IMG/VR virus record: IMGVR_UViG_3300027834_000006
Span: 1-62,503 of that record
DNA: 62,503 nt
DNA from: a virus
Strand: one strand, 5' to 3'
This document shows, in pieces, positions 20,500 through 43,726 of this stretch; position 1 is the first letter of the stretch, and each line of letters starts with the position of its first letter. The notes under the pieces are model-generated. The model was given only the letters and a program-made list of their open reading frames with translations, was not told the DNA's origin and ran no database searches. A program made the position numbers and the translations under genes.

Positions 20500-20523
20500 T
20501 CAGTATCCCCTAATAAAGATATT

Positions 20524-25730: not shown

Positions 25731-25736
25731 TTTTTT

Positions 25737-26318: not shown

Positions 26319-26351
26319 CATTAACCTCCAAACAAAATAACATCAAAATGC

Positions 26352-27017: not shown

Positions 27018-27021
27018 TATG

Positions 27022-27858: not shown

Positions 27859-27881
27859 GTACTGTCCTCCTATTATAAAAA

Positions 27882-28142: not shown

Positions 28143-28146
28143 CTCG

Positions 28147-29201: not shown

Positions 29202-29354
29202 TCACCTATTCCTATTGATCCACCAAGTTTCTTCCACGGTTTTTGCTGTCTTCTCGCACCCAGGACGGGTGCACACATATCTTATTTGATCGCTTATCCA
29301 CAACGAGAACGGAGATTGCCTGAATTTATGTCCGAATATCTTACATACCCACAT
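29202..29354 (-). CDS. DUF1660-like small prophage/phage protein
   Basis: The 50-residue product begins 'MWVCKIFGHKFRQSPF' and contains 'YVCTRPGCEKTAK', the Cys/His pattern of small DUF1660-type phage proteins (CxxFGHK then CxxxxC). A strong GGAGGGTTTAGC precedes the ATG, which lies one base after the primase stop. It shares no frame with the overlapping longer open frame on the same strand. Confidence 0.72.
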   Translation of the reverse strand: MWVCKIFGHKFRQSPFSLWISDQIRYVCTRPGCEKTAKTVEETWWINRNR

Positions 29355-29355
29355 G

Positions 29356-30303
29356 CTAAACCCTCCTGCCCCATAAAAGTTCGTTCACCATTTCCATATT
29401 ACTGCATATGCCCGGTACGCGTAAATCGTATTTCAGCATGGGTGCAATGTTTCTCACTATTTTAACCCGGCCTTTCAATGTAGAATCATCATGTTCCGAA
29501 AAAACTCTCTGCACATATCGATCAATCAGAGGAACCGCCAATTCATCCAGAACCTCATTAATCAAATAACCTGTTTCACCAAGAAAAACCGAGTCGGGAT
29601 CTTTACCTTCAGGCAATTCTACGATCTTCGGTGATATCCAACGATCAAGAAAAAGAGAAAGCGACTTGTACATGGCATTCCTACCGGCCTTATCTCCATC
29701 GAAAACGAGTGTGACGTTATTCGTTATACGAGACATCAATAGAACATGGCCCTTGGTGACGGCAGTTCCATTAGAGGCAACCACATTATATTTCCCCATG
29801 GCCTGTAGCGCGAAACAATCAAAAATGCCCTCCACCATATACAATACTTTCTTCGAATCAGGAGAATCCAGGGCTTTATCTATGCCAAAAAGACACTTTC
29901 CCTTTGAATATATCTCCGATGTAAGCGAATTGATGTATTTGGATCTCGTCCCTTCATCTATAGAACGACCAACAAACCCCACTACATGCTTATCAAGGTC
30001 ATATATGGGGATCATGATTCTGTCCCTATAGAAATCGTAAATGTCATTACCCTTTCTCACCACCAGGCCAACCGCGAAGGCCAGGTCAAGAAGGATGGGC
30101 CTGTTTTTGATCTTTTGATAAAAAGAATTACCCCGCCGTATAGCCAGTCCCAAGTTATTGCTCCTGCAAACTTTCTCGGATACCCCCCTTTTCGACATAT
30201 ACAACCTTGCCCTTTTGCCCACAGCAGTAATCCCCCAGAACTTCTTCTCGTAAAATCGTGCTGCTATCTGATTAATTCTATACAGGTTCCTAGGTTTTCT
30301 CAT
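29356..30303 (-). CDS. DnaG-type primase catalytic (TOPRIM) half
   Basis: The 315-residue product corresponds to the RNA polymerase core of DnaG. 'YMSKRGVSEKVCRSNNLGLA' aligns with the N-subdomain, 'DRIMIPIYDLDKHVVGFVGR' follows, and the TOPRIM part has 'VLYMVEGIFDCFALQAMG' (catalytic Glu) and 'NVTLVFDGDKAGRNAM' (DxD). The N-terminal CHC2 zinc domain is missing; a separate gene for it is at 41633-42112 on the other strand. The start overlaps a 31-residue gene as ATGA. It makes replication primers. Confidence 0.9.
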   Translation of the reverse strand: MRKPRNLYRINQIAARFYEKKFWGITAVGKRARLYMSKRGVSEKVCRSNNLGLAIRRGNSFYQKIKNRPILLDLAFAVGLVVRKGNDIYDFYRDRIMIPIYDLDKHVVGFVGRSIDEGTRSKYINSLTSEIYSKGKCLFGIDKALDSPDSKKVLYMVEGIFDCFALQAMGKYNVVASNGTAVTKGHVLLMSRITNNVTLVFDGDKAGRNAMYKSLSLFLDRWISPKIVELPEGKDPDSVFLGETGYLINEVLDELAVPLIDRYVQRVFSEHDDSTLKGRVKIVRNIAPMLKYDLRVPGICSNMEMVNELLWGRRV

Positions 30304-30395
30304 TTGCCTGTCTTCTCCAGATAATGATCAACCAAAATATAAAATTCTAACCTGTCGGCAATAGCAGAATGTTGGCAAAAAACTTCAAATTTCAT
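30300..30395 (-). CDS. 31-residue leader gene of the primase
   Basis: The frame starts with ATG at 30395 after CCGGGGAGAAACTC and ends in an ATGA overlap with the primase start. The product begins 'MKFEVFCQHSAIADRLEF' and ends 'DHYLEKTGK'. It lies directly downstream of a good promoter (30427-30455). It could be a small regulator or act mainly to couple translation of the primase. Confidence 0.6.
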   Translation of the reverse strand: MKFEVFCQHSAIADRLEFYILVDHYLEKTGK

Positions 30396-30426
30396 GAGTT
30401 TCTCCCCGGGAAAGTCAGTTTAACAA

Positions 30427-30455
30427 ATAATAACACACAATAAATAACATGTCAA
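30427..30455 (-). promoter_or_regulatory. Early promoter, family TTGACA-N17-TAnnnT (primase)
   Basis: On the - strand TTGACA (30450-30455) is followed after exactly 17 bases by TATTAT (30427-30432), with TGT just before it as an extended -10. The sequence ahead of the -35 includes ATTATTC, shared with the other family members. It lies upstream of the 31-residue gene and the primase. Confidence 0.75.
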
Positions 30456-30461
30456 GAATAA

Positions 30462-31199
30462 TCACAAATAAAGAGGTACCCCGTTTGGACCAAATGAGGT
30501 GGCATCAATATGACTCATAACATAATCTTCTACGGTTATACGCCCCTCCAAATCCACTTTTTTAATCATGGCCTCGTTACCCCTATAGCTCATCCCCCAG
30601 TTATCACAAAGTAACTGGCCCACTCTATTTCGGAGTTCATCACTGATAATCCTGTGAAGTATAATATGATCCGCTACGTATTGGGCGGAAGAAGGGTTTT
30701 GTGAGTATTTACCTGTTATTTTCTTAACTTCTTTATAGGTGGGGCCATCAAACCATTTTATGCGGATACCTGTTCCCCAAAAACCATCACCGTATCTTGC
30801 CAGTAAAATAAAACCAATTCCCGGAAATTGGTCTTTTAATTCTCTTCCGATTTTCTCCTTTCCCAATATCAACTTATCTCCCGGGGGAGTTTTGTACAAG
30901 GCCTGTTCCGTCTCTTTAATGTCACACGATATCCCGTTCCTTAGTTTTGTAACTTCTGTTTGCAAGGAAGACATTAGTTTTATTATTTCAGAATGGGTAG
31001 ATTCGGGATCGATGCAGGAACTACAAAGCTCAGGGTATAGAGGGCAAGTCTGACAATAACTACGCAAGCCCTGGTTATACAACTTGCAATATCCACATCC
31101 TTCAATCATCATTTTGTCAACACGTTCAAGCTCCCTCGATATATCCCTCCATTTATCTGCTGTATCATTTTTTTGTTTTAAAAATTCATCATTATTCAT
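30462..31199 (-). CDS. Fused Cys-rich + LPD29-like protein
   Basis: The 245-residue product joins two modules that occur as separate genes on the + strand. Residues 1-75 match the Cys-rich family ('EGCGYCKLYNQG', 'CQTCPLYPELCSSC'). Residues ~115-190 match an LPD29-like domain ('IGRELKDQFPGIGFILL', 'IKWFDGPTYKEVKKITGKY'). The C-terminus ('LCDNWGMSYRGNEAM...VEDYV') matches the tails of the paralogues at 35334 and 38680. This is the only member on the - strand. Fusion suggests the two modules act together. GGGGAGGGGAAAAAAC precedes the ATG. Confidence 0.82.
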   Translation of the reverse strand: MNNDEFLKQKNDTADKWRDISRELERVDKMMIEGCGYCKLYNQGLRSYCQTCPLYPELCSSCIDPESTHSEIIKLMSSLQTEVTKLRNGISCDIKETEQALYKTPPGDKLILGKEKIGRELKDQFPGIGFILLARYGDGFWGTGIRIKWFDGPTYKEVKKITGKYSQNPSSAQYVADHIILHRIISDELRNRVGQLLCDNWGMSYRGNEAMIKKVDLEGRITVEDYVMSHIDATSFGPNGVPLYL

Positions 31200-31226
31200 G
31201 TTTTTTCCCCTCCCCTTATAAGGTTA

Positions 31227-31415
31227 TCATATCAAATCCCAGAAATGCTCATCGACTGTTGCTGTATAATCGTAATTCAAATCCTCTGATTCCTCTATGA
31301 GAAGAGATGCGAATCGATGAATAATTTCTATTTGGGCATCAGTTACGTTGACAGTTTTCCCGGCAGTAATCTTAGCGCCTTTTTTACCGGTAACCATCGT
31401 TTCAGGCTTTTTCAT
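31227..31415 (-). CDS. Small acidic helical protein, unknown
   Basis: The 62-residue product starts 'MKKPETMVTGKKGAKITAG' and then has a helical acidic part ('QIEIIHRFASLLIEESEDL'). GAGGAATGAATC precedes the ATG. No motif was recognised. It belongs to the leftward early cluster of small genes. Confidence 0.65.
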   Translation of the reverse strand: MKKPETMVTGKKGAKITAGKTVNVTDAQIEIIHRFASLLIEESEDLNYDYTATVDEHFWDLI

Positions 31416-31425
31416 GATTCATTCC

Positions 31426-31635
31426 TCATTTTGCTCTTTCCTCCAAAGTTCTTCTTACCTGCTCCATCGCCCAATCAAGCTTATCTTCTGGCATAGCATC
31501 AACAGCTTCATTAATAGGTGTTTCCAACCTATGAAAGCAATACATTTGTTTAAATAGATGTTGCTGTTCTTTCGTACACTCAGCCAATCCTTCCTTCAGT
31601 TGCTTTCTCGCAAAATCCTGTAACTGATTGTTCAT
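31426..31635 (-). CDS. Small helical protein, unknown
   Basis: The start at 31635 follows TTTAGGAGGGAGTAGC. The 69-residue product is helical and charged ('LQDFARKQLKEGLAECTKEQ', 'EDKLDWAMEQVRRTLEERAK'). It is transcribed from its own promoter (31683-31711), whose leader resembles that of the gene at 32925-33200. Confidence 0.7.
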   Translation of the reverse strand: MNNQLQDFARKQLKEGLAECTKEQQHLFKQMYCFHRLETPINEAVDAMPEDKLDWAMEQVRRTLEERAK

Positions 31636-31682
31636 GCTACTCCCTCCTAAATGATTTTCCAAATTCACCAAACTCAACAAAA

Positions 31683-31711
31683 ATACTAACACATGAGAGG
31701 GCTTGTGTCAA
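31683..31711 (-). promoter_or_regulatory. Early promoter, family TTGACA-N17-TAnnnT
   Basis: TTGACA (31706-31711, - strand) and TAGTAT (31683-31688) are separated by 17 bases, with TGT before the -10. The leader that follows contains GAATTTGGAAAATCATTTAGGAGG-like sequence, shared in form with the leader at 33201-33244. Confidence 0.75.
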
Positions 31712-31726
31712 GAAAAAAAATAATAT

Positions 31727-31918
31727 TCATGAGGTCTCGGGTTTGTATCCCGAGCAAAGATGAACTCCCAAAATCGTAAGAGTGCAATTTTGTTTTGAGT
31801 CATAATCTCTTGTGAATTCAGATATCTTGTTGTTTCTGGTAATTTCCCAATTCGTACACCTACCCTCTGTATTCCAGTAGCAATTATTTATACCCCCCTC
31901 TAATTCTATCCCATGCAT
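31727..31918 (-). CDS. Small Cys-containing protein, unknown
   Basis: The start at 31918 follows TTAGGAGAGAGTAGA. The 63-residue product has five cysteines ('NCYWNTEGRCTNWEI', 'NCTLTILGVHLCSGYKPE'), consistent with a small zinc or disulphide fold. A longer in-frame start at 31954 lacks a binding site. It lies between two leftward small genes. Confidence 0.65.
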   Translation of the reverse strand: MHGIELEGGINNCYWNTEGRCTNWEITRNNKISEFTRDYDSKQNCTLTILGVHLCSGYKPETS

Positions 31919-31947
31919 TCTACTCTCTCCTAAGTAAGTTGTGCAGT

Positions 31948-32163
31948 CTACCAAAAATCAATACTGCAATAAACCGGTCCTATCCACAGGCTAAGCCCAA
32001 AATCATAGTGATAGCCCATGTCAAAGCCGAAGCCCCAACGGAGCAAGGTTATCTCAACCTGGATATGGTCTGATTCAAACTGCCAATGATACCAGGGTTT
32101 ATTGTGTGAAAAAGGTTTGAATGTATCAGTCACTCTACCTCCCAAGTAATTCTTTGAGCGCAT
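31948..32163 (-). CDS. Small aromatic-rich protein, unknown
   Basis: The product is 71 residues from the ATG at 32163, which overlaps the upstream stop as TAATG, or 61 residues from a GTG at 32133 preceded by TTGGGAGGTAGA. It is rich in Trp, Tyr and Phe ('PWYHWQFESDHIQVEITLL', 'GYHYDFGLSLWIGPVYCSI') and may be a small beta-barrel or membrane-associated protein. Which start is used is uncertain. Confidence 0.6.
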   Translation of the reverse strand: MRSKNYLGGRVTDTFKPFSHNKPWYHWQFESDHIQVEITLLRWGFGFDMGYHYDFGLSLWIGPVYCSIDFW

Positions 32164-32333
32164 TAGTCTTTTACATAATCATCGGTCTGAAATGCACCGT
32201 CCCCCTCAAGAAGTTCCGCGCGGGATATGTCAACAATTACTTTGCTCTCTGGGGAGCAGTTTTCGTTCAACCATCTTATCAAAGGCCTGGCAGCCTCCTC
32301 AAATGTTATGTATTGATAGGTTTTAAAAATCAT
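32163..32333 (-). CDS. 56-residue early protein, unknown
   Basis: The frame starts at ATG 32333 behind a very strong GGAGGAGGTACGC. The product begins 'MIFKTYQYITFEEAARPLI' and includes 'WLNENCSPESKVIVDISRAE'. It looks like a small alpha/beta protein. It has its own promoter (32367-32395) and its stop overlaps the next ATG. Confidence 0.72.
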   Translation of the reverse strand: MIFKTYQYITFEEAARPLIRWLNENCSPESKVIVDISRAELLEGDGAFQTDDYVKD

Positions 32334-32366
32334 GCGTACCTCCTCCGTGAATTAGTTTAGAAAAAG

Positions 32367-32395
32367 AGAGTAACATACAAAAGATCCCTTGTCAA
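32367..32395 (-). promoter_or_regulatory. Early promoter, family TTGACA-N17-TAnnnT
   Basis: TTGACA (32390-32395, - strand) is followed after 17 bases by TACTCT (32367-32372), with TGT before it. It drives the 56-residue gene. Upstream ATTATTC is shared with the primase promoter. Confidence 0.7.
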
Positions 32396-32778
32396 GAATA
32401 ATGTTTGGAGTATTTCGCAATCCACTCCTTCAATTCTATTATCTTTTTGTCTTCCGCTTGCATTTTGTTTCGTTTTTGCATGTGACCACAGGACACAAAT
32501 TTCCATACATGGTTTTTCTGACTTCCTCCCAACGATGACCGTATTCGAGATTTTTCTTTTTTTTCACTTTCGGCATCAACCAATCGAACAAGACAACCCA
32601 ACCTATGGTGCTTAAATTCACCAACCAAAGCAGTTTCCATCCATTCTACCAATGTTCGATCCTCAATGCAATATTGGACGCTCATCCATCTCCAAAGATT
32701 TTGTAAATCGTCAGCATTTTGTACTTCTCTAGCCTCCATGCCACCATCAACAGACTCAAAATATATAAAATTTTTCAT
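32392..32778 (-). CDS. Early protein, unknown
   Basis: The 128-residue product starts 'MKNFIYFESVDGGMEAREV' and contains a helical part with several Trp ('LWRWMSVQYCIEDRTLVEWM') and a basic C-terminal half. No family was recognised. It follows its own promoter at 32810-32838. Its stop codon overlaps the next promoter's -35 region. Confidence 0.7.
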   Translation of the reverse strand: MKNFIYFESVDGGMEAREVQNADDLQNLWRWMSVQYCIEDRTLVEWMETALVGEFKHHRLGCLVRLVDAESEKKEKSRIRSSLGGSQKNHVWKFVSCGHMQKRNKMQAEDKKIIELKEWIAKYSKHYS

Positions 32779-32809
32779 CGGATATCCCCCAAGAAAGTTA
32801 TTTCAGCAA

Positions 32810-32838
32810 ATGGTAACACGTAAAGGATTTTATGTCAA
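32810..32838 (-). promoter_or_regulatory. Early promoter, family TTGACA-N17-TAnnnT
   Basis: TTGACA (32833-32838, - strand) and TACCAT (32810-32815) are 17 bases apart, with TGT before the -10. A run of T and AT-rich sequence lies upstream, resembling an UP element. Confidence 0.72.
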
Positions 32839-32924
32839 GAAAAAAAATAATAATTTTTGTTTTTTCAGAATTTTCTGCAAGGTTAAATTTCGGAGAGTTG
32901 ATTTAATCCTCCCATTCCTGCACC

Positions 32925-33200
32925 TCAATGGCATTCGCACATCCCCCCATTGTAAGCGTATGGGCCATGGTATCCTTGTGGGTCTTCAGTGTTATAATGT
33001 TCTCCTGGAACGCCGTACCAATATCTGCCATTTCCACAACAATCACAAATCCGAACATCATAATCTTCTCCATGTTCTCTTATCCAGGTCAACACACCGG
33101 CCACAAAGTAATCCAATTTTTTTAATTTTATCATTACATCCTGCGGAATTTGATGTGTGTTTATAAACCCGGTTCCGTCACATCTAGTACATGTCTTCAT
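32925..33200 (-). CDS. DnaJ-type zinc-finger early protein
   Basis: The start at 33200 follows CTTGGGAGGTAAATAT. The 91-residue product has two CxxCxGxG motifs as in the DnaJ central zinc domain ('CTRCDGTGF' near the start and 'CDCCGNGRYW' in the middle). The rest is rich in Gly, Tyr and His. There is no J domain, so it is not a co-chaperone in itself. It is the first gene of the leftward unit. Confidence 0.75.
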   Translation of the reverse strand: MKTCTRCDGTGFINTHQIPQDVMIKLKKLDYFVAGVLTWIREHGEDYDVRICDCCGNGRYWYGVPGEHYNTEDPQGYHGPYAYNGGMCECH

Positions 33201-33244
33201 ATATTTACCTCCCAAGTGATTCTCCAAATTTGTTAACTTAACAG

Positions 33245-33273
33245 ACGATAACATTCAGAAGGTTTCTTGTCAA
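33245..33273 (-). promoter_or_regulatory. First leftward early promoter
   Basis: TTGACA (33268-33273, - strand) is followed after 17 bases by TATCGT (33245-33250), with TGT ahead of it. It is the outermost leftward promoter and borders the non-coding origin-like region. Confidence 0.75.
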
Positions 33274-34079
33274 GAAGAAAATAATTTTTTTTGTTTTTTT
33301 GAGAATTTTACACCTGGGGACTATACCCCCCTTTTCTTATATATCAATACCAAAACCCCACGTGCCACCCCTCTCCACGCGCGCACATAACGCACACGCA
33401 CGCCTACACACACATATAACAACAACTAACAACTGACAAAAGACTCACAAGGTTTAGTCTTTTCACATAACAAACAACACTCATAAACTACAATACTAAC
33501 AAAAGACAAGGGTATACCCCTATTGTCCCTATTGAGTACACTTGACCAAGGTCTAGCCATAGATACTTAATGTCTAAGTACTGAGTGCAAGATATTTAGC
33601 GTGGAATATCTAGCCCTCAGTCATAGCCATCAAGTACCAATGCCTACATATTTGGTATTAGATACCCAGCATCAACTACCGGGTGTCAAGTATGAACACC
33701 GAGTATTGAGTACTTAATGCAGGGGACTTAGTGCTTGTTACTGAGTACCAACTGAGAAACCCTAACATTATCAGTCTTTTGGGAACAATGGAATATTGAG
33801 AGGTTCCGAGTGTCTCAGCATATTGTAAAAACGCTAAGGTGGCTTATAGCATCGACGATCAGAGGGCAAGGCATACGAATGTATCAGTTTTGTGCTTGCG
33901 TCTGTTAGAGGGCAAATAAGGGCTGTTAAATTGGATTTAAGGGTTTTTGTTGGGTTAGTCATGATAATAGTTACCTCCATAAAGTACTGTAAGTGTTTGA
34001 TATTGTTGAAGATTGTTCCCTTTATGGGTTAAAACGTAGGGACTATACATTTTCCCAAAACCCTCCTATTAGTTTTCAA

Positions 34080-34275
34080 TACTGATGTTTTCTTAATTTC
34101 CTTCTTAACTTCTTACTTCTCTTTAACTACCTTACAAAAAAACATTCAAGTCTTAGTTTCTTTAACTTCTTCTTGCTTTCTCTTTAATAGCTTCTTATTT
34201 TCTTTAACTAAACACTTTCTATTATCTTCTTTTAATCCCTTCTTATTCCTTTATTTTCTCTTTACTGGTTTTTAT
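34080..34275 (+). repeat. Pyrimidine-rich tract
   Basis: About 200 bases of the + strand are almost all T and C with scattered A, built from irregular copies of words such as CTTCTTA and TTTCTTTAACT. Such strand asymmetry is typical of DNA unwinding or primase entry regions and of some terminator-like RNA sequences. No coding frame is present. Confidence 0.6.
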
Positions 34276-34304
34276 ATAACTTCTTTTTAATAAAATCTTT
34301 TGAT

Positions 34305-34505
34305 AAGATCTTTTAATAATCTATTCTGTAAGGGTTTCTTAACAAGTCTTTACTTAGTAGTTTTTTAAAGACAAAAGAAGCCTGTAGGAGAATGAAAAGT
34401 ACTAAAAACATGTAAAGACTTGATAAAAAGATGAAGATCTTTTATTAAGGTTTCTTTATTATTCTTTCATTAAAGACTTTTATTATTCTTGTATAAAGAT
34501 CTTTA
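34305..34505. repeat. Three AAGATCTTT palindromes in AT-rich DNA
   Basis: AAGATCTTTT occurs at 34305-34314 and 34434-34443, and the perfect 12-bp palindrome TAAAGATCTTTA at 34494-34505. Related TAAAGACTTT words lie between them. The regular recurrence in AT-rich DNA next to the main rightward promoter suggests binding sites of a phage initiator or regulator. Confidence 0.5.
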
Positions 34506-34604
34506 TATTAATATCTTTTATTATAGTACCTGACTGGGGGGATTTTGTCAAGGAGAAAAAAGCTTTTTATTTCGTTTTGCGTACCGGGCATTGAAGTTTT
34601 TTAC

Positions 34605-34633
34605 TTGACAAGAATAATCTTATTTGGTATAAT
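34605..34633 (+). promoter_or_regulatory. Main rightward early promoter (perfect consensus)
   Basis: TTGACA (34605-34610), 17 bases, then TATAAT (34628-34633) preceded by TGG as an extended -10. This is a perfect sigma-70 consensus. It lies 51 bp before the first + strand gene and should be recognised by the host polymerase at once after DNA entry. Confidence 0.9.
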
Positions 34634-34684
34634 CTGATTATGTATCGTTGAGAAGTAAAAAAACTAATAAAAGGGAGAAAGAAA

Positions 34685-34969
34685 ATGACAAGATTAGAGT
34701 TAGGAACCCAAAATATTACTCAGGACCTGAAGAAGGCTTTCCCAGGATGTGACTTTACGGTTATTCCCACCATCTTAGATAGCCAAAAATCATTCATCGG
34801 TGTATATTGGATGCCAGGTCCATCCCTCAAAGCAGTTGACAAAGTAGTAGCTAAATATGCCCTAGGTGTTTGGAATGATAAGACTGAAGTTTATGATTAT
34901 AGTCCTGAAGCTATCGCCTTTGGTGATGAAAGGGGAGGAGCAACTTTTATCTGGACAAAGACAATATGA
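34685..34969 (+). CDS. LPD29-like protein, copy 1
   Basis: The 94-residue product is a diverged member of the LPD29-like family: 'LGTQNITQDLKKAFPGCDF', then 'VYWMPGPSLKAVDKVVAKY' and an ending 'GGATFIWTK' that matches the paralogues. It is the first gene after the main rightward promoter. LPD29 domains were described in polyvalent proteins of phages and conjugative elements that enter the cell early. The biochemical role is unknown. AAAGGGAGAAAGAAA precedes the ATG. Confidence 0.78.
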   Translation: MTRLELGTQNITQDLKKAFPGCDFTVIPTILDSQKSFIGVYWMPGPSLKAVDKVVAKYALGVWNDKTEVYDYSPEAIAFGDERGGATFIWTKTI

Positions 34970-34997
34970 TAACTTAATTCAAGAAAGGGAGAAAAAA

Positions 34998-35306
34998 ATG
35001 AATAAAGAGGAAATCTTAAAAAACAAACTGCAATCACAAGAAAAGTGGAACGATGTATTGAAGGGCATCCACGCCCTGGAAAGTAATATTATCGACAAAG
35101 AAGGTTACTGTAGAATATATCAAGATTGCACGATAAGCAGAAAACACGAGTGCCACGATTGCCCTTTATATCAATGTGAAGCCTGTAGCCCTGAAGAAGA
35201 TGATAACTCACTCTATACACAGATCTTAATTGCACTTGATAAAATGGAGCGGCTTACTGCGGGCTTGCTAGAAGATATAAAAGACGATATCGCTGCAACC
35301 ATCTAA
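34998..35306 (+). CDS. Cys-rich early protein, copy 1
   Basis: The 102-residue product begins 'MNKEEILKNKLQSQEKW', has a Cys cluster ('EGYCRIYQDC', 'ECHDCPLYQCEACSP'), and ends in a helix ('KMERLTAGLLEDIKDDIAATI'). The layout (helix, CxxC-type zinc site, helix) recurs in six other genes here. AAGGGAGAAAAAA precedes the ATG; a longer frame starting in the previous gene is not supported. It alternates with LPD29-like genes. Confidence 0.8.
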   Translation: MNKEEILKNKLQSQEKWNDVLKGIHALESNIIDKEGYCRIYQDCTISRKHECHDCPLYQCEACSPEEDDNSLYTQILIALDKMERLTAGLLEDIKDDIAATI

Positions 35307-35333
35307 TGTAAACCAAAAAAAGAGAGGTGAAAC

Positions 35334-35786
35334 ATGAAAAGACAGATGAGAGATTACACGTTAGGAGCAAAGAATATAAGGAAAGAATTGAAGGCTGCGT
35401 TTCCCGCCATTAAGTTTTCTGTGCGCTCAAAAGGGTATGCTGGAGGTTGCAGCATCCATATAGATTGGATCGAAGGGCCAACCGAAGAAGCAGTAGAGAA
35501 GATAACCAACAAGTATGAGCAGGGATCTTTCGACGGGATGATAGATCTATACACATACGATACAGACAGAGAATTTACCGACAAAAACGGAGGAGCAAAA
35601 TATGTCTTTACTCATCGAAAATATAAAGCTGAAACCGAAGAAGCACTTGGTAGAAAACTTTGCAAAGAAAACGGCGTAGAGTATGACGGCGAAGAAACAA
35701 GGCATTTATGGGGATCACAAGACCCAAGACTTTTAAGGACTCATGTTTGGGAAGAGCTTAGCAAAACATCTTTTAACACCAACTAA
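35334..35786 (+). CDS. LPD29-like protein, copy 2
   Basis: The 150-residue product is a full LPD29-like protein: 'LGAKNIRKELKAAFPAIKFS', 'IHIDWIEGPTEEAVEKITNK', 'GSFDGMIDLYTYD' and a C-terminal tail 'YDGEETRHLWGSQDPRLLRT'. It is collinear over its whole length with the protein at 37599-38051 (both 150 residues). GAGAGGTGAAAC precedes the ATG. See the LPD29 entry at 34685 for the family. Confidence 0.85.
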   Translation: MKRQMRDYTLGAKNIRKELKAAFPAIKFSVRSKGYAGGCSIHIDWIEGPTEEAVEKITNKYEQGSFDGMIDLYTYDTDREFTDKNGGAKYVFTHRKYKAETEEALGRKLCKENGVEYDGEETRHLWGSQDPRLLRTHVWEELSKTSFNTN

Positions 35787-35817
35787 TAGCAATAACTTTA
35801 TGAAAAAGGGAGAAAAC

Positions 35818-36891
35818 ATGCATATAACTATTGAGCAAAAAACACTGAAAGACGCGCTAAAGAAAATTCAAGACTGTGTTAAAAAAGACAGGAACCTTGC
35901 CCTCACTTCACACGTATCAATCACAACAGGTGTTGACTCTGTGACCTTCTCCGCTACAAACCTGGACGTTTACCTTGATATGCAATGTAAGGCTGTTGTG
36001 GCTACTCATGGTTCTTGTGTTGTAGACAGAGAAGCACTTAAGGTTTTGACCAAACAGGCGACAAAAGAAACAATTACTATTTTCACAGAGAGAAACAATG
36101 AAATAGGGTTTCGCAAGGGAACTTTAAACACAACACTTGACGCACATGACCCGCTTCCTGTTGCTCCAGCCGAAGGCGCCCTCCCTTTTAGTTCCATTAA
36201 TGCCAAAAACCTGGCCGAAATGATAAAAAACACATCTTATGCGGTGTCCACTGATGAAGATCGAGCAGATGTAATGTGCGTTTACCTGGAAAGTCAAAAC
36301 CAAGGAATGAGTATGGTAGCAACAGACGGGCACCGCCTGTCCTTCATGAGGCTAGAAGATAAAATAGATTCATTTTCTTCTATTCTTATCTCCAAAAAAA
36401 GCACAGACGCACTGTATAAACTACTTAAAAAATGCCCTCAAAACCTGGTAATGATGGGTGCTAGCGATGAAACACTAGTAATTAAAAGCGATACTGAAAT
36501 TATGTCAATAAGAATTCAAGGGGATATTTTCCCTGATTATAAGAAAATAATTCCCAAAAACAATGACATAAGAATTGAGGTTAATGCAGCCACTTTAAAA
36601 GAAGCAATTCTTTCTTGTCCCTTCTCTAAAAAGAATTATATTCTTGGCCTGGAAATAACAAAAGACAAGATTACAATTACCGGAACGAACACACCCCTTG
36701 ATATTGCCACGCTAAACCCCATAAGTGAAGACATCAGCATAAACCTTAATTATAAATATCTGCTCGATGTTTTGGCGACAATCGACGGAACGATGGTTGA
36801 ATTGGCTTTCTTGGATTCCGCCTCTTCCGTTCTAATAACAGAACCGGGAAATTATTGCAAGCTGGCCCTGATAATGCCAATACAAACTTGA
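35818..36891 (+). CDS. dnaN: DNA polymerase III sliding clamp (beta subunit)
   Basis: The 357-residue product is a bacterial-type beta clamp: 'MHITIEQKTLKDALKKIQDC' at the start, 'VATDGHRLSFMRL' in domain 2, 'GDIFPDYKKIIPKNN' and the terminal 'LALIMPIQT' that matches the usual VMPM ending. Length fits the family (~366). Phages usually borrow the host clamp, so an own copy is unusual, and no phage DNA polymerase was recognised in this genome. AAAGGGAGAAAAC precedes the ATG at 35818. It may redirect host polymerase or protect against clamp-directed defence. Confidence 0.93.
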   Translation: MHITIEQKTLKDALKKIQDCVKKDRNLALTSHVSITTGVDSVTFSATNLDVYLDMQCKAVVATHGSCVVDREALKVLTKQATKETITIFTERNNEIGFRKGTLNTTLDAHDPLPVAPAEGALPFSSINAKNLAEMIKNTSYAVSTDEDRADVMCVYLESQNQGMSMVATDGHRLSFMRLEDKIDSFSSILISKKSTDALYKLLKKCPQNLVMMGASDETLVIKSDTEIMSIRIQGDIFPDYKKIIPKNNDIRIEVNAATLKEAILSCPFSKKNYILGLEITKDKITITGTNTPLDIATLNPISEDISINLNYKYLLDVLATIDGTMVELAFLDSASSVLITEPGNYCKLALIMPIQT

Positions 36892-36916
36892 TGTAAACCA
36901 AATAAGGGGGATAAAC

Positions 36917-37015
36917 ATGAGTTACAAGGAAATTTGGCTCACAGCGCTTACGGCAATCGGTATAACGGCAATTGTTATTACCTTAATGGCTATAGCTGAA
37001 AGAATAGGTTTCTGA
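36917..37015 (+). CDS. 32-residue membrane protein
   Basis: The frame begins at ATG 36917 after AAGGGGGATAAAC and encodes 'MSYKEIWLTALTAIGITAI' followed by 'VITLMAIAERIGF', i.e. one membrane helix. It is too short for most gene finders. Function unknown. Confidence 0.6.
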   Translation: MSYKEIWLTALTAIGITAIVITLMAIAERIGF

Positions 37016-37053
37016 AAGCAAAAAAAACAAACCAAAAAAAAGGAGAACGTATC

Positions 37054-37287
37054 ATGGAAAGAGACAATGATTGGAATGTGAAAGCCGATGCATTTCTTAA
37101 GGTGCTTGAAAATATTAGAGTGAGCGTGCGACTTTATCAAGAAGGAGAACCGAGGAAACAGGCAGAAACCCATATCAAAAAACTTTTAGCTTGCAATAAT
37201 CTTCCTGATTATCATTCTGGGCTTATTATGCGAGCTGTAGATTCTTGCATATTTGACATCATTCATGTTATAGAGTATGATAGATAA
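37054..37287 (+). CDS. Small helical early protein, unknown
   Basis: The 77-residue product is helical ('DAFLKVLENIRVSVRLYQEG', 'SGLIMRAVDSCIFDIIHVIE'). AAAAAGGAGAACGTATC precedes the ATG. No homology was recognised. It interrupts the Cys-rich/LPD29-like series. Confidence 0.7.
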   Translation: MERDNDWNVKADAFLKVLENIRVSVRLYQEGEPRKQAETHIKKLLACNNLPDYHSGLIMRAVDSCIFDIIHVIEYDR

Positions 37288-37335
37288 ATCCAGGTCAAAC
37301 CTTGACATTTATAAAGGCAAAAAAAGGAGAATACA

Positions 37336-37584
37336 ATGAGAGTGAGAGAATTTGAGGCCATGATCGAGAGAAGAAGTGGCTTTTGTTTTCTATACCTGGC
37401 AGCTCATGGCGAAAAGGGAAAAGCTTGCGATAATTGCCCTCTGCATAAAAATGGAGCGTGTAGCGTATACTATGAAGATAATTCACTTTTTACGCAAGTC
37501 CGAAATGCACGCGCAAAAATGGAACGATTAACAAAACAATTATGGCAAAAAATAGAAAAAGCAATCGAGAACCCAACCAAATAA
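37336..37584 (+). CDS. Cys-rich early protein, copy 2 (shortened)
   Basis: The 82-residue product lacks the usual N-terminal helix and starts near the Cys cluster ('RRSGFCFLYLAAHGEKGKAC' then 'DNCPLHKNGACSV'). The shared 'EDNSLFTQV' and 'KMERLTKQL' segments follow. The start ATG has AAAAAGGAGAATACA before it. It pairs with the LPD29-like gene 15 bp downstream. Confidence 0.78.
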   Translation: MRVREFEAMIERRSGFCFLYLAAHGEKGKACDNCPLHKNGACSVYYEDNSLFTQVRNARAKMERLTKQLWQKIEKAIENPTK

Positions 37585-37598
37585 AAGGAAGGTGTGAA

Positions 37599-38051
37599 AT
37601 GAAAAGAGAACTGAGTGAACAGGCGCTAGGAGCAAAGAACATCAGGAAAGAGTTGAAGGCTGCGTTTCCGGGCATTAAGTTTTCTGTATGTTCAGAGTCG
37701 TTTGCAGGCGGGAACGCTATTGAGGTAGACTGGACCGACGGACCCACAAGAACGGAAGTGGAGAGAATAACGGCTAAGTACAAACATGGGAATTTTGACG
37801 GAATGACCGATTCTTATACGTACAAGCCGGACAGTGCCGAGAGTGCCGAGAGAGGCGGCGCCATGTATGTGCAAATACAACGGCATTACAGCGCTGAGAC
37901 AATGGAGAAGCAAGGCAGAGAACTTTGCCGTAAACAGAAGATAGAATACGAAGGGAACGCCACCAGATATCTTTACGGCCCATCAGACTGCGACCGTCTA
38001 TCTGTTCACGTTTACAGAGAACTTGCGAAAAAATCTTTTAAGACTAACTGA
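37599..38051 (+). CDS. LPD29-like protein, copy 3
   Basis: The 150-residue product closely matches the 35334-35786 protein over its full length ('LGAKNIRKELKAAFPGIKFS', 'VDWTDGPTRTEVERITAKYK', 'GNFDGMTDSYTY', 'HVYRELAKKSFKTN'). The start at 37599 follows AAAGGAAGGTGTGAA; a longer frame overlaps the previous gene without a binding site. It is the best preserved family member. Confidence 0.86.
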   Translation: MKRELSEQALGAKNIRKELKAAFPGIKFSVCSESFAGGNAIEVDWTDGPTRTEVERITAKYKHGNFDGMTDSYTYKPDSAESAERGGAMYVQIQRHYSAETMEKQGRELCRKQKIEYEGNATRYLYGPSDCDRLSVHVYRELAKKSFKTN

Positions 38052-38065
38052 AAGGGAGGGAAAAG

Positions 38066-38374
38066 ATGGACAAAAAAGAGATCTTAAGAATGAAACAAGG
38101 AACAAAAGTGAAATGGGATGGTATTGCAAGAAAACTACGTCTTATTGAGAAAGACATCGCTACTTGCTGCGGTTATTGTATGGCATATAAAAAAGAATCT
38201 TTAACTAAAAAACATCCCTGTTGTCATTGCCCACTATATAAAAGTAGATCTTGTAGCGCGAAAGTGGAAGACAATTCCGTTTTCACTCAAGCTCTGAATA
38301 CGATTAAAAAGTTAGAAGGTTTTACGAAAATAATCCAGAAAGATATAAAAGACGATATCTCCGCAACTATCTAA
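38066..38374 (+). CDS. Cys-rich early protein, copy 3
   Basis: The 102-residue product has the same length as copy 1 and the same plan: 'MDKKEILRMKQGTKVKW', 'CCGYCMAYKKES', 'PCCHCPLYKSRSCSA', then 'DIKDDISATI' at the end, which matches copy 1 ('DIKDDIAATI'). GGGAGGGAAAAG precedes the ATG, 14 bp after the previous stop. Confidence 0.8.
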   Translation: MDKKEILRMKQGTKVKWDGIARKLRLIEKDIATCCGYCMAYKKESLTKKHPCCHCPLYKSRSCSAKVEDNSVFTQALNTIKKLEGFTKIIQKDIKDDISATI

Positions 38375-38397
38375 TAAACAAAAAAAGGAGAACGACC

Positions 38398-39468
38398 ATG
38401 GAAACATTAACAAAAGAAAATGCTCCACGGGTGGATACAATAAAATTAAAATGTTTTCCTTTTTTTATTGCAAGAAAGTTTAATTACAAAAAGCACCACT
38501 TTAGCAATGATGCTTTTGTGAGTTCATATGAAGGCCCAGGATATAGAATGGGCCTTCGAGAAAATAATTATCACTTATGGACTGTTGCATCTTGGAAAAA
38601 GGGAGGAAAAGCCATGGATACAATATTAGGCTATGAAGATATTAAGGTAGATCGAATAATATTTAAAAAGAGGAGAACCATGAATAAAAACGAGATTTTA
38701 AAACAGAAGATTGAATCAGCGGAGAATTGGGACAAGAGGTTACTTGAGCTTGAGCGTCTCGGTAATAAAATGGGTGAAAAATGCGGGTATTGCAACTTAT
38801 ACAGAAAAAGTGCTGCTAATTATCATCCTGATTGCCGCTGTTCTGACTGCCCTTTATATCCAAAGCTTTGCAGTATGAAGAAAGAAACCCCCTCTACTTA
38901 TACTAAGATATGGGAATTAATGGAGGCCTTACAGGAGGAATGCTCTGAATTAAAAGACGGAATCGAAAAAGACATTGAGCATACAAGGGAAACCCTCAAA
39001 GAAGAGAAGCCCTTGGACAACTTAGCCCTGGCAGTAGAAAACCTTATTAAAGAGTTAGGGGAGGCGTTTCCGGGGATCAAATTTATTTTGAGATCAAAAA
39101 AACATGAAGCTCCCTGGGGGTGTGCCATTCACGTAAGGTGGATTGATGGACCTACCAAAAAAGAAGTAAAAAAAATAACCGATAAATACGAACGCAAGAA
39201 CCACCTCGGTGGCGTTCTCCCTAATGGTGTGGTAACTTATGTTGCAAGCCGGAGAATTCATAGCCATAAAACCAAAACCAGGATAGGGCAAATCCTCTGT
39301 GATTCGTTTTCGATGAAATACAGGGGAAACGAGGGCAGCCACGTATACGGGCAGCCGGGGTGTAAAACTATTGATGACTATGTCAAAAAAAACATCCGAG
39401 ATACTTCATTTGATTCAAAAGGCAATATATTGCACATAGATCAAGATCCCACGTATCTTGAACGATAA
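38398..39468 (+). CDS. Long frame: N-terminal domain + Cys-rich + LPD29-like
   Basis: The 356-residue open frame has three parts. Residues 1-94 are a separate small domain ('FSNDAFVSSYEGPGYRMGLR', 'LWTVASWKKGGKAMDTILGY'). From Met 95 (38680, after AGAGGAGAACC) a Cys-rich module ('EKCGYCNLYRKS', 'CSDCPLYPKLC') is joined to an LPD29-like domain ('LIKELGEAFPGIKFILRSKK', 'VRWIDGPTKKEVKKITDKY') and the shared tail. A third start at 38614 also has GGGAGGAAAAGCC. The upstream gene may have fused by loss of its stop, or two proteins may be made from one frame. Confidence 0.78.
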   Translation: METLTKENAPRVDTIKLKCFPFFIARKFNYKKHHFSNDAFVSSYEGPGYRMGLRENNYHLWTVASWKKGGKAMDTILGYEDIKVDRIIFKKRRTMNKNEILKQKIESAENWDKRLLELERLGNKMGEKCGYCNLYRKSAANYHPDCRCSDCPLYPKLCSMKKETPSTYTKIWELMEALQEECSELKDGIEKDIEHTRETLKEEKPLDNLALAVENLIKELGEAFPGIKFILRSKKHEAPWGCAIHVRWIDGPTKKEVKKITDKYERKNHLGGVLPNGVVTYVASRRIHSHKTKTRIGQILCDSFSMKYRGNEGSHVYGQPGCKTIDDYVKKNIRDTSFDSKGNILHIDQDPTYLER

Positions 39469-39493
39469 CTTTATAAAAAGGGAGGGGCGACCC

Positions 39494-39787
39494 GTGGGAA
39501 AAGAATACATCTTGAAAAAGAAAAAGAAAGCAGAAACAAAATGGAAAAGCATATTGAGGAAAACCCAAGCATTAAAACGCCAATTATATAGCCGCTGCGG
39601 TTACTGTGAATTGAGCACCACTTGTGCCGATTGTCCATTGAGCGGGAATGTGTGTGGACCGCGCAAGGGCATGACGGATTCACTCTATGGCAATATTGCA
39701 TATAGAATTAGAGAGCTCGAACATGACGTGGAAAGTTTCAATCTTGCCATTAAAAGAGATATCAAAAAAACTAACGACTCTAAATAA
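39494..39787 (+). CDS. Cys-rich early protein, copy 5
   Basis: A GTG at 39494 with GGGAGGGGCGACCC in front is preferred over an upstream ATG. The 97-residue product has 'SRCGYCELSTTCADCPLSGN' followed by VCG, i.e. the same CGYC...CxxCPL...C core with a shorter spacer, plus the flanking helices ('KKKKKAETKWKSIL', 'ELEHDVESFNLAIKRDIKK'). It follows the fused gene at once. Confidence 0.75.
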   Translation: MGKEYILKKKKKAETKWKSILRKTQALKRQLYSRCGYCELSTTCADCPLSGNVCGPRKGMTDSLYGNIAYRIRELEHDVESFNLAIKRDIKKTNDSK

Positions 39788-39804
39788 AGGGGGAGATTGC
39801 AATC

Positions 39805-40092
39805 ATGAATGAAAAAGAGATCATGGCAAAGAAAAATGAGTCAAAGAAAAGGTGGAGTAATATAAAGGAATCTACCTTCGACTTACTGATAAGGGCAAAA
39901 GCCCCCTGTGGCTACTGTAATATATTTGAAGATCTCTGTAGTGAGTGCCCCCTCGATGGTAAAATATGCTCTTCCGACAACTCTCTTCACGGTAAAGCAG
40001 TAAGTGCATTAAAAACAGCCTATGAAAACGCTTTAGCCCTGCGCGATGCGATAGTGAAAGACATTGAGCAAAGCAAATTAAGGGGAAGTTAA
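39805..40092 (+). CDS. Cys-rich early protein, copy 6
   Basis: The 95-residue product has 'MNEKEIMAKKNESKKRWSNI', the core 'PCGYCNIFEDLCSECPLDGK' with ICS, and a helical end 'ALALRDAIVKDIEQSK'. AAGGGGGAGATTGCAATC precedes the ATG. It is the last of the series before a terminator. Confidence 0.78.
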   Translation: MNEKEIMAKKNESKKRWSNIKESTFDLLIRAKAPCGYCNIFEDLCSECPLDGKICSSDNSLHGKAVSALKTAYENALALRDAIVKDIEQSKLRGS

Positions 40093-40104
40093 AAAGATAG
40101 CCTA

Positions 40105-40124
40105 CCTGGAGGGCCAAGTCCAGG
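40105..40124 (+). terminator. Hairpin with T-rich tail
   Basis: CCTGGA/TCCAGG (40105-40110 and 40119-40124, 8-base loop) is followed by AACTTTCTCTCTTTTT. It could be a first, weak termination or pausing site ahead of the stronger terminator 30 bases later. Confidence 0.45.
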
Positions 40125-40151
40125 AACTTTCTCTCTTTTTCCCTGGCTTAT

Positions 40152-40184
40152 CGGGGTCGCAGGGTAAGAACCGACCCCGTTTTA
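40152..40184 (+). terminator. Intrinsic terminator after the Cys-rich/LPD29 block
   Basis: CGGGGTCG (40152-40159) pairs perfectly with CGACCCCG (40172-40179) across a 12-base loop and is followed by TTTTAAACTTT. It would reduce transcription from the early block into the replication genes. Confidence 0.75.
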
Positions 40185-40206
40185 AACTTTATAATATGAG
40201 GGAAAA

Positions 40207-40368
40207 ATGGAACAAGATATTAAAAAATGTGACTGCGGAAAAGTGGCTACCGGACGATATTATTATCCATATTTAGGAGGCTTATGGAAATATCAATGCG
40301 CAAAGTGCGCTGCTGGGTTTCAAGCATTTGAACCGCTACCGGATTTTAAAGGGGGTGGCTATGAATAA
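40207..40368 (+). CDS. 53-residue zinc-ribbon protein
   Basis: The frame starts at 40207 after TGAGGGAAAA and encodes a zinc ribbon with 'KCDCGKVATGRYYYPYLGG' and 'YQCAKCAAGFQAF' (CxC and CxxC). Its last codons overlap the next gene by 8 bp. It is the first gene after the terminator. Confidence 0.65.
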   Translation: MEQDIKKCDCGKVATGRYYYPYLGGLWKYQCAKCAAGFQAFEPLPDFKGGGYE

Positions 40369-40642
40369 TTTTAAAACCCAGTTTGAATTATTCGGGAAGA
40401 TTGCGCCTGGGTGGAAGATGATTCGTCCCCTAGAGATAACAATAGAACAAGACGACAATGAAGATCATATGGCAAACGATGATGAATTTTGCGTTTATGG
40501 TTACGGAAACACACAACTTCTCGCGCTACGAGATTATGCTACATCACTGATTGAATATTACCAACTTATCGAAAAACATATGGCTTTTTCGACACAAGCA
40601 ATATTTGTTTCTTTGAAATCATACATTAACCGCATTCAATAA
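40361..40642 (+). CDS. Small conserved-looking protein, unknown
   Basis: The start at 40361 follows AAAGGGGGTGGCT. The 93-residue product has an acidic first half and 'EFCVYGYGNTQLLALRDYAT' followed by a helix, a GxG-x-eAl-D-type pattern seen in small phage and antitoxin-like proteins. No family is claimed. Confidence 0.65.
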   Translation: MNNFKTQFELFGKIAPGWKMIRPLEITIEQDDNEDHMANDDEFCVYGYGNTQLLALRDYATSLIEYYQLIEKHMAFSTQAIFVSLKSYINRIQ

Positions 40643-40664
40643 AGATTCCGAAGGAGCCGCGACA

Positions 40665-40913
40665 ATGGAGACCCTATATATATGTTTTAAAGAATGCATG
40701 TCTTTACGGGGATACCAGTTCGTATGCGTGTTGTTATTATGGATAGTAGTTTTTTTGTGGGTATTCGGTGCGCTTTATTCTATAGCAGAAGAGATTACGC
40801 TATTCATGAATGAGTCTATTACGGAAATACTTGATGACACGCAAAAGAAGCAGGCAAACAAGCTTTTTGTGATTTTTATCTTGTGTCTATGTGTGTTTTT
40901 GTCTTTTTTTTAG
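40665..40913 (+). CDS. Small two-pass membrane protein
   Basis: The 82-residue product has two membrane helices ('FVCVLLLWIVVFLWVFGALY' and 'LFVIFILCLCVFLSFF') joined by a charged loop. CGAAGGAGCCGCGACA precedes the ATG. Such early membrane proteins often alter host envelope functions or anchor replication. Function unknown. Confidence 0.7.
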   Translation: METLYICFKECMSLRGYQFVCVLLLWIVVFLWVFGALYSIAEEITLFMNESITEILDDTQKKQANKLFVIFILCLCVFLSFF

Positions 40914-40937
40914 TTCTGGTTTTTTATGAGGTACAAC

Positions 40938-41141
40938 ATGAAACCCGGATCTTTGATTCTTTTGGTTTTGTTGATTTTCTCATTCGTTGTCATTTGCTGT
41001 TTAAACCGTGATCTTCACAGAGTAAAAAACATGCTTGAACGCCAAAACGAACTCAGCAGACAAATGGTTGAGATGACACAGAACAAAACATTGATTCTTT
41101 TGGAGGGAACAATAGATGAAAGAAAAGAATTTTCAGAGTGA
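40938..41141 (+). CDS. Small membrane-anchored coiled-coil protein
   Basis: The 67-residue product has an N-terminal membrane helix ('LILLVLLIFSFVVICCL') and a cytoplasmic coiled-coil ('LHRVKNMLERQNELSRQMVE'). GAGGTACAAC before the ATG at 40938 favours it over the ATG at 40926. It overlaps the RecU-like gene by 26 bp. This layout resembles Rz/i-spanin or small anchor proteins, but its early position argues against lysis. Confidence 0.6.
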   Translation: MKPGSLILLVLLIFSFVVICCLNRDLHRVKNMLERQNELSRQMVEMTQNKTLILLEGTIDERKEFSE

Positions 41142-41655
41142 GTTCAAGAAAAACAACAAGATACATGGCGTGTTTGAACTGAAGCTTTGCAAGGGTGTTT
41201 CTCTGCCGTTCTCTTCCGTAAAACCGCATCAGGAAAAGGCCCTGCTGGCCGCAACTACTATGGAGGGCTTGTATTACAAGATCCCCGATCAGCCCGTTTC
41301 TGAAATGGAAGAAGATGCCCCGAAGGAAAACGAAAACAACAAGCAAAAGGGAAAGAAAATACGATTCACCCTGCCGAAACCGTTCGACTGTTTTCTGGTT
41401 AAGAATACTCCCGCATACGTTGTCATAATGTTTTATGTTCCTCGAAAGAAAAAAACGGTGTATTATATCCCTATCGGGGATTTTCTTGAAATGAAAAACT
41501 CAGTGACACGAAAATCAATGACCGAAGAAATGTTGGGCAAATATGCCACATCGATTCAATCATGGTTGAAGGGATGCAGGACTTTTACGGTGGGCGAAAA
41601 TCAAAGAGACTGTTCGATAATAGGGGACTGGTTTGGACAACCGAAAAAAAAATAA
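41116..41655 (+). CDS. RecU-like Holliday junction resolvase
   Basis: The 179-residue product resembles RecU/PBP-related factor A type nucleases. The PD-(D/E)XK core has Glu in 'HGVFELKLCKGVSLPFSSV' (E-x-K), followed by 'KPHQEKALLAA' with the conserved HQ, and beta strands 'FDCFLVKNTPAYVVIMFYV'. An insertion with charged residues follows the HQ helix. It would resolve replication or recombination intermediates. GGAGGGAACAATAG precedes the ATG. Confidence 0.72.
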   Translation: MKEKNFQSEFKKNNKIHGVFELKLCKGVSLPFSSVKPHQEKALLAATTMEGLYYKIPDQPVSEMEEDAPKENENNKQKGKKIRFTLPKPFDCFLVKNTPAYVVIMFYVPRKKKTVYYIPIGDFLEMKNSVTRKSMTEEMLGKYATSIQSWLKGCRTFTVGENQRDCSIIGDWFGQPKKK

Positions 41656-42112
41656 ATGTGTTGACAAAGAAAACATTTATGATATAATGGTTTCAGAATC
41701 CATTGAGTTGATGGACCATGGGAATTGCCTGAAGGCACTCTGCCCGTTTCATGATGACACGAACCCTTCCATGGCGGTATATCCCCAGAAAAATCGTTGG
41801 TGGTGTTTTGTATGCCAGGAGGGGGGAGATAGCATAGATTTTATAATGAGATACAAGAAGATGAACTTTGTGAGGGCATGTGATTATTTGGGTGTTTACA
41901 AAACCTCCGCACATAAGAAAAATGACAAAAAAAACGTATTGGATCTGGCCGTTTGCAGGAATGAGAAGGATAGGAACGTGATCAATAAGTTACTGAAGGA
42001 TGAGTTCGAGCAAATTATCGCAGACGGAGACAATTACAGGGTTAACGTGAAGTTTACATCCGACAATAAAATAATGGTTTTCCGGGTTATGTCCCGGAGT
42101 CAAACAGAATGA
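41633..42112 (+). CDS. Primase CHC2 zinc-binding half
   Basis: The 159-residue product (TTG start at 41633 after AGGGGACTGGT) corresponds to the N-terminal domain of DnaG: 'IYDIMVSESIELMDHGNCLK', then 'LCPFHDDTNPSMAVYPQKNR' and 'WWCFVCQEGGDSIDFIMRY', giving the Cys-His-Cys-Cys zinc site. The RNA polymerase core is encoded separately at 29356-30303 on the opposite strand. The C-terminal ~60 residues are unrelated to DnaG and may bind the partner. The two would have to assemble to prime. Confidence 0.88.
   Translation: MDNRKKNKCVDKENIYDIMVSESIELMDHGNCLKALCPFHDDTNPSMAVYPQKNRWWCFVCQEGGDSIDFIMRYKKMNFVRACDYLGVYKTSAHKKNDKKNVLDLAVCRNEKDRNVINKLLKDEFEQIIADGDNYRVNVKFTSDNKIMVFRVMSRSQTE
41661..41688 (+). 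promoter_or_regulatory. Consensus-like promoter inside the primase zinc gene
   Basis: TTGACA (41661-41666), 16 bases, then TATAAT (41683-41688) match both sigma-70 hexamers. The site lies within the first codons of the primase zinc gene, so any transcript would lack this gene's start and serve the genes that follow. It may be a secondary promoter or coincidence in AT-rich coding DNA. Confidence 0.5.
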
Positions 42113-42138
42113 AGTTTTGGTGGAGGGAGGTGGAAAAC

Positions 42139-42324
42139 GTGTATTCTTATAACGATTTTGAATGTCTGAATTGTGGGACCAGGTGGGATGCCGTGTGGAA
42201 TTGCAATGACGGACCGCCTCCATGCCTGAAATGCGGTGGAGAATCAAAGAAGATCCTGAGCGTTACTTCATGGAGGCTCGGCAAGTTTGATACCAAAACG
42301 ACACATAAAATAAGTAAAGATTGA
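42139..42324 (+). CDS. FmdB-like zinc-ribbon protein
   Basis: A GTG at 42139 with GGAGGTGGAAAAC in front gives a 61-residue protein starting 'MYSYNDFECLNCG', the typical opening of FmdB-type zinc ribbons, with the second pair in 'PPCLKCGGES'. A basic tail follows. The upstream ATG at 42109 overlaps the previous gene and is less likely. It probably binds nucleic acid. Confidence 0.75.
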   Translation: MYSYNDFECLNCGTRWDAVWNCNDGPPPCLKCGGESKKILSVTSWRLGKFDTKTTHKISKD

Positions 42325-42435: not shown

Positions 42436-42461
42436 TCACTGAAGAAAGGAGGGCATACAAA

Positions 42462-42728
42462 ATGAAAGGGGCCATTGTTTTACGGCGGCTGACTTATGTG
42501 ATGAGGAGTTATGCAAGATCAAGCCTGGTAAAAAAACTTTTTTCAACAATGTTTTTTGGCCGTGTTTCGTTGGTACTTGGGGCATTTGGTGTATTGATTA
42601 TTTTTATTGGGCGACTGACTGGCGTGATCGCGGACGGTGACGGGGCTGTATGCGGTTTGATAGTGGCAATTGGAACTAGTGTGGGGATAGCGGTGGAGGG
42701 TTATATCGATGATATTAGAGAAGAATAA
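42462..42728 (+). CDS. Membrane protein of a three-copy N-terminal family
   Basis: The start at 42462 follows AAAGGAGGGCATACAA. The 88-residue product opens with 'MKGAIVLRRLTYVMRSYARS', closely matching the openings of the genes at 43508 and 43727, then has two membrane helices ('VSLVLGAFGVLIIFIGRL', 'AVCGLIVAIGTSVGIAVEG'). No LPD29-like domain follows, unlike the 43727 product. Confidence 0.7.
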   Translation: MKGAIVLRRLTYVMRSYARSSLVKKLFSTMFFGRVSLVLGAFGVLIIFIGRLTGVIADGDGAVCGLIVAIGTSVGIAVEGYIDDIREE

Positions 42729-43480: not shown

Positions 43481-43507
43481 CCCCATGAATGTGCGAGGGC
43501 ATACAAC

Positions 43508-43684: not shown

Positions 43685-43726
43685 CACTTAAGACCGAACT
43701 ATAACAAATGACGGAGGGCATCCAAA

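Follow-up and report, generated by a model that had tools for sequence, protein, structure and literature searches.

A DnaG-type primase core and a separate CHC2 zinc-domain protein encoded on opposite strands of a tailed phage genome

The genome and the two genes

We analysed an entire IMG/VR virus record of 62,503 bp, referred to here as the window. An exact 127-bp repeat at its two ends suggests a circular, complete phage genome of ~62.4 kb (about 62,376 bp), and matches to portal, terminase, major head and internal virion proteins among its products indicate a tailed phage. The gene map divides near 34 kb into two diverging strand blocks. The minus block holds structural genes and genes for nucleotides and sugars; the plus block (34.7-49.7 kb) carries clamp, resolvase-like, CHC2, DnaB-like, exonuclease and RecT-like genes. 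An assembly chimera was rejected in view of the terminal repeat and the colinearity of the strand blocks with those of a sister phage contig, G008. A scan of genome contigs with the capsid alignment, for a host or prophage, returned nothing useful.

Several further features of the window were recorded. A sugar module on the minus strand (18559-28193) includes NeuB-like (27022-27858), UDP-GlcNAc 2-epimerase (22795-23970), cytidylyltransferase-like (21545-22198) and Maf/MptE-like glycosyltransferase (18559-20499) genes, with homologues in the sister contigs L012, L013 and G008. The early block on the plus strand encodes a PspA/IM30 family protein (42791-43480) and, near its end, the phage's own sigma factor (48608-49267; phrog_1740, 3.1e-25). 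A 109-nt direct repeat is present in three copies (42442-42550, 43488-43596 and 43707-43815), the outer two matching the reference copy at 67% and 83% identity.

Table 1. Genes, domains and predicted promoters around the two primase-related genes
Feature	Position	Strand	Basis or remark
Small zinc-ribbon-like DUF1660 protein, gene following the core	29202..29354	-	
DnaG-type primase RNA-polymerase core, 315 aa	29356..30303	-	Pfam, PHROGs, phmmer against PDB
Parts of the core	residues 28-144, DNAG_N; 155-239, TOPRIM; then C-terminal helical part	-	
31-codon leader ORF, stop overlapping the core ATG	30300..30395	-	by eye
Predicted sigma70-like promoter upstream of the core, TTGACA-N17-TATTAT with TG	30427..30455	-	sequence
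Two-domain gene immediately upstream of the core, Cys motif and LPD29	30462..31199	-	Pfam
Predicted promoter, head of the plus-strand early block	34605..34633	+	12/12 sigma70 consensus
DNA polymerase III beta clamp	35743..36891	+	
Holliday-junction-resolvase-like protein, overlaps the CHC2 start	41116..41655	+	phrog_843, 6.4e-12
CHC2 zinc-binding domain protein, 159 aa, TTG start	41633..42112	+	Pfam, PDB, fold model
CHC2 domain proper	41657..41890	+	ligands C37, H40, C58, C61
Promoter-like site within the CHC2 gene, codons ~10-19	41661..41688	+	12/12 sigma70 consensus, extended -10
C-terminal extension of the CHC2 protein, residues ~96-159 (~64)	41918..42112	+	
Small zinc-ribbon-like protein, overlaps the CHC2 stop	42109..42324	+	Pfam matches under cut-offs
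DnaB-like RecA-fold ATPase, 260 aa, without N-terminal primase-binding domain	44761..45543	+	

The first-pass annotation of this DNA had placed a TOPRIM core without a CHC2 domain on the minus strand, and both the coordinates and the strand proved right (Table 1). Pfam recognizes DNAG_N (1.4e-27) and Toprim_2 (3e-17) in the protein, with no match at E<=0.1 to CHC2 or to a DnaB-binding domain. In phmmer searches of the PDB, residues 7-298 align with the Pseudomonas aeruginosa DnaG core (5vaz, 6.8e-36) and residues 4-298 with Escherichia coli DnaG (1dd9, 5.8e-35). The motifs VEGxFD (at 157), FDGDKAG (201) and KDPDS (234), which we take to hold the metal-binding acidic residues, are intact and align with their DnaG counterparts. 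As only 17 residues remain past the core alignment, the helicase-binding domain is absent as well. An AlphaFold model built from a two-row alignment had a mean pLDDT of 41, too poor for use. The short ORF that overlaps the core start makes translational coupling possible. A CHC2 relic beside the core was considered and rejected, since this 31-codon ORF carries no CHC2 ligands by eye.

The plus-strand protein was likewise correctly described as a CHC2 domain with an unrelated extension. Zn_ribbon_DnaG (Pfam) matches residues 9-86 at 1.1e-21, and the motifs CPFH (37) and CFVC (58) have all four ligands in place. Sequence matches in the PDB include the Bacillus stearothermophilus zinc domain (1d0q) and 2au3, and 1d0q is also the best PDB match of the fold model (Foldseek E 4.3e-7), whose block-mean pLDDT is 89-97 across residues 11-80. 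The extension has no credible family match (best E: Pfam 0.041, PHROGs 0.12); its predicted structure, of low confidence, consists of one helix and two strands. In the overlapping upstream gene, the Pfam match to RecU (0.0011) falls short of its cut-off.

The two genes are separated by 11,329 bp, in line with the 11 kb noted previously, and encode complementary pieces. The best PHROG for both is phrog_6444, a primase family of 577 positions, on which the CHC2 protein covers positions 18-117 and the core 113-401, so that the ranges abut. Across the entire record there is one CHC2 place, one Toprim_2 place and no Prim-Pol match; these searches for a second full primase, whose discovery would have spoken against a split enzyme, gave none. 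Of the features of a DnaG-type primase, the genome provides a catalytic core with its acidic motifs and a CHC2 domain with C-H-C-C ligands, the latter in a separate gene; zinc domain and core in a single polypeptide were not found, nor was a C-terminal helicase-binding domain. The abutting ranges and single copies are good evidence at the sequence level for complementarity, as distinct from contact. Domain trees (22 and 20 rows) both place the window loosely near the phage primases L074 and L075, on long branches and without starred support, and none of the groupings put to AU tests was rejected. Given these weak supports, the trees do not show a common origin of the two halves.

Promoters and transcription units

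The genome has 12 sites of the pattern TTGACA-N16-18-TANNNT; 200 first-order Markov simulations gave an expectation of 2.4 and a maximum of 8. For the full 12/12 sigma70 consensus there are two sites where 0.055 would be expected, and one of the 200 simulations had as many. Six minus-strand sites (30455, 31711, 32395, 32838, 33273 and 34551) resemble members of a single promoter family, and the site nearest the core (30455-30427) ends 124 bp ahead of that gene. No enrichment of terminator-like sites was seen (11 against an expected 13.8). The 12/12 match within the CHC2 gene may be a chance occurrence; if it acts as a promoter, its transcript would begin past the CHC2 start and would probably supply genes farther downstream or a truncated zinc protein.

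The first-pass annotation had assigned the two genes to different early units. Predicted promoters make two separate transcription units a fair reading, and this support extends to the separation and not to the early timing. Because both units start with near-consensus predicted sigma70-like promoters, nothing points to units that are timed differently, and the host polymerase may read both from the start. The accompanying proposal, that priming must await expression of both early units, is a deduction and draws no support from the sequence. Host DnaG is presumably present as well.

Relatives and sister phages

Relatives were drawn from matches to either half and scanned with HMMs built for this analysis, after removal of loci from the window itself and of repeated cuts from the same contig. 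The resulting 48 loci carrying either domain are therefore a non-random set, in which many IMG/VR loci are near copies. Fused versions, for which a survey had been suggested, are frequent: 24 of the 48 have both domains in one ORF by HMM, and in two more (L076 and L090) the core ORF begins, by eye, with a Cys-rich stretch. Two overlapping neighbour ORFs on one strand were found at 16 loci (Streptomyces phage Ponzi, Mycobacterium phage Danforth, L034, L036 and L039-L050), a broken Helicobacter prophage gene at one (L006), CHC2 without core at four (L035, L037, L038 and L059) and core without CHC2 at one (L015). Halves on opposite strands were seen at none of the 48 loci and in none of the named phages compared. 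By these matches, relatives of the core appear usually to be fused to CHC2. Among 13 whole phage-collection records searched for CHC2, 12 gave a single match, within or overlapping the primase gene, and the whole record of S-CAM4 gave none. Single-sequence scans of viral contigs with core, CHC2 and RecT-like queries returned nothing useful.

The four CHC2-only contigs, fragments of 14-27 kb, have no Toprim_2 match over their whole length, so a core partner is not obligatory for a CHC2 protein. In three of them the orphan domain is C-terminal in a protein that is otherwise uncharacterized (L035:9542-10168, L037:467-829 and L038:3138-3818; ORFs of 120-226 aa).

Scans with terminase, capsid and portal identified 14 close-kin contigs, with a best segment at least 53% identical and most of them short fragments; the core gene was found in one and CHC2 in none. 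The 60,840-bp G008 is colinear with the window and opens inside the plus block; its sequenced part has no CHC2, Toprim_2 or beta-clamp match, and because of where it opens, these genes may lie in its missing piece. In L015, a 265-aa core-only gene (phrog_6444, 1.6e-44), 28% identical to the window core, lies directly upstream of the terminase. The terminase junction has no core in the window or in any of the eight other sister contigs that cover it; the site of the core gene therefore varies within this phage group. More distant portal relatives (L101-L105, 28-34% identical) carry neither half in the DNA examined, and a DnaB-like scan found no new sister phage besides G008.

The neighbourhood of the core hints at how the split may have arisen. 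Genes with the Cys motif and LPD29 form a paralogue family (30462-31199 on the minus strand and 34685-40092 on the plus strand) in which two genes are fused and the others separate. The nearest paralogue of the two-domain gene upstream of the core lies on the CHC2 side (38398-39468, plus strand; 41% over 254 aa), from which we infer that sequence has passed between the strand blocks. On the CHC2 side the two domains are also found as separate adjacent genes, so domain fission or fusion can be seen in this genome.

Interpretation and comparison with known systems

Reportedly, Corn et al. found in 2005 that the zinc domain of one DnaG monomer can act on the core of another monomer. The reading we favour, and hold to be reasonably probable from the sequences, is a two-subunit DnaG-type primase in which the minus-strand protein would be the catalytic core and the plus-strand CHC2 protein would serve in trans as the zinc domain that reads the template. 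With one of each in the genome, abutting phrog_6444 ranges and intact motifs, cooperation in trans is the simplest reading. The two proteins would meet without a covalent link, probably on the single-stranded template, and the C-terminal extension of the CHC2 protein would perhaps help them to do so. We infer a physical association, primer synthesis in trans and descent from a fused ancestral gene. Also in favour of this reading are the match of the CHC2 fold model to 1d0q, the many relatives with fused or overlapping halves and the standalone zinc ribbons reported for jumbo phages. Counting against it are the orphan CHC2 proteins, the trees, which do not show a shared origin, and the scarcity of either half among the close-kin contigs.

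A rather unlikely alternative is that the CHC2 protein is an orphan with a DNA-binding or regulatory role of its own, the core borrowing the zinc domain of host DnaG or priming less specifically without one. The three C-terminal orphan domains in contigs without Toprim_2 show that such proteins occur, and the window's CHC2 gene adjoins a resolvase-like gene, not the polymerase core. However, this is the only CHC2 domain in the genome and supplies what the core lacks, and its order, with CHC2 leading and a tail behind, agrees with DnaG and the actinophage zinc genes and differs from the orphans.

Pol III alpha was not found in the record although a beta clamp is encoded, and no polymerase appeared among the window proteins scanned against PHROGs, a subset of the ORFs. 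The phage would thus use the host polymerase with its own clamp, and the CHC2 protein could act on host DnaG or on the host replisome, as an adaptor or inhibitor, leaving the core an accessory. We consider this quite unlikely, as there is no sequence sign of an interaction with host DnaG, and it would be difficult to account for a core gene that is intact and has a promoter-like site of its own.

That the core was recently moved or acquired, is dispensable or decaying, and that the split has no function is very improbable: the core beside the L015 terminase, its absence there from the other eight sisters and the lack of both domains in the sequenced part of G008 are in keeping with it, but the window core is a full-length frame with all motifs intact and its own promoter-like site.

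If the halves cooperate as we propose, they would constitute a two-polypeptide DnaG-type primase whose parts could be expressed, titrated and mixed at will. This would make it possible to ask what the covalent linker contributes to primer length and start-site choice, and whether primase cores swap partners between phages. A more speculative extension, with a slim chance of being right, is a roaming primase core that moves without its zinc domain and pairs with any resident zinc subunit, the separate promoters and the CHC2-internal promoter setting the zinc-to-core ratio and so tuning the choice of primer start as infection proceeds.

Bacterial DnaG (E. coli, B. stearothermophilus, Aquifex aeolicus and P. 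aeruginosa) has a zinc domain and core homologous to those of the window. In contrast to the window proteins, it is one polypeptide and carries a C-terminal helicase-binding domain. T4 gp61 has a zinc domain and a core that dock at separate helicase sites (PMC10359460); it resembles the window pair in having both parts without the large DnaG helicase-binding domain, but is a single polypeptide whose parts are joined by an 18-residue loop. The T4 helicase gp41 is described there with an N-terminal domain, which the DnaB-like protein of the window lacks. According to a review (PMC6163395), dinucleotide synthesis persists in T7 primase that lacks the zinc domain.

Closer parallels are found in two other groups of phages. 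In group 2 jumbo phages, DnaG-like primases tend to have a standalone primase-type zinc ribbon, according to a passage of Iyer et al. 2021 (PMC7824862), so that, as here, one genome encodes a DnaG-like TOPRIM primase alongside a zinc ribbon in a gene of its own. The present phage, of ~62 kb, is not a group 2 jumbo phage; its halves lie 11.3 kb apart on opposite strands, whereas that passage gives neither distance nor strand, and its zinc protein has an added C-terminal tail. Actinophages such as Ponzi (genes 30/29) and Danforth (genes 60/59), together with the IMG/VR loci L034, L036 and L039-L050, encode a CHC2 ORF of 133-137 aa and a TOPRIM ORF of its own of 217-236 aa, and their records label both overlapping genes DNA primase. 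There, however, the halves are adjacent, overlapping and on one strand, and the TOPRIM piece is shorter than in the window. These ORFs overlap by ~145-190 nt in different frames (L005:4998-5925, L077:2908-3784, L034, L036 and L039-L050), and a frameshift fusion product is possible because of the overlap.

We found no description of DnaG halves on opposite strands in the literature searched, a scope that excluded most subscription journals. Given the standalone zinc ribbons that the passage on jumbo phages describes and the two-gene primases of actinophages, a split primase is already known in kind. What is new here is that the halves are physically separated, and that in sister phages the core lies at another locus (L015) or at neither known site. 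The window thus presents a modest variation on this kind, a probable two-subunit primase encoded in two transcription units.
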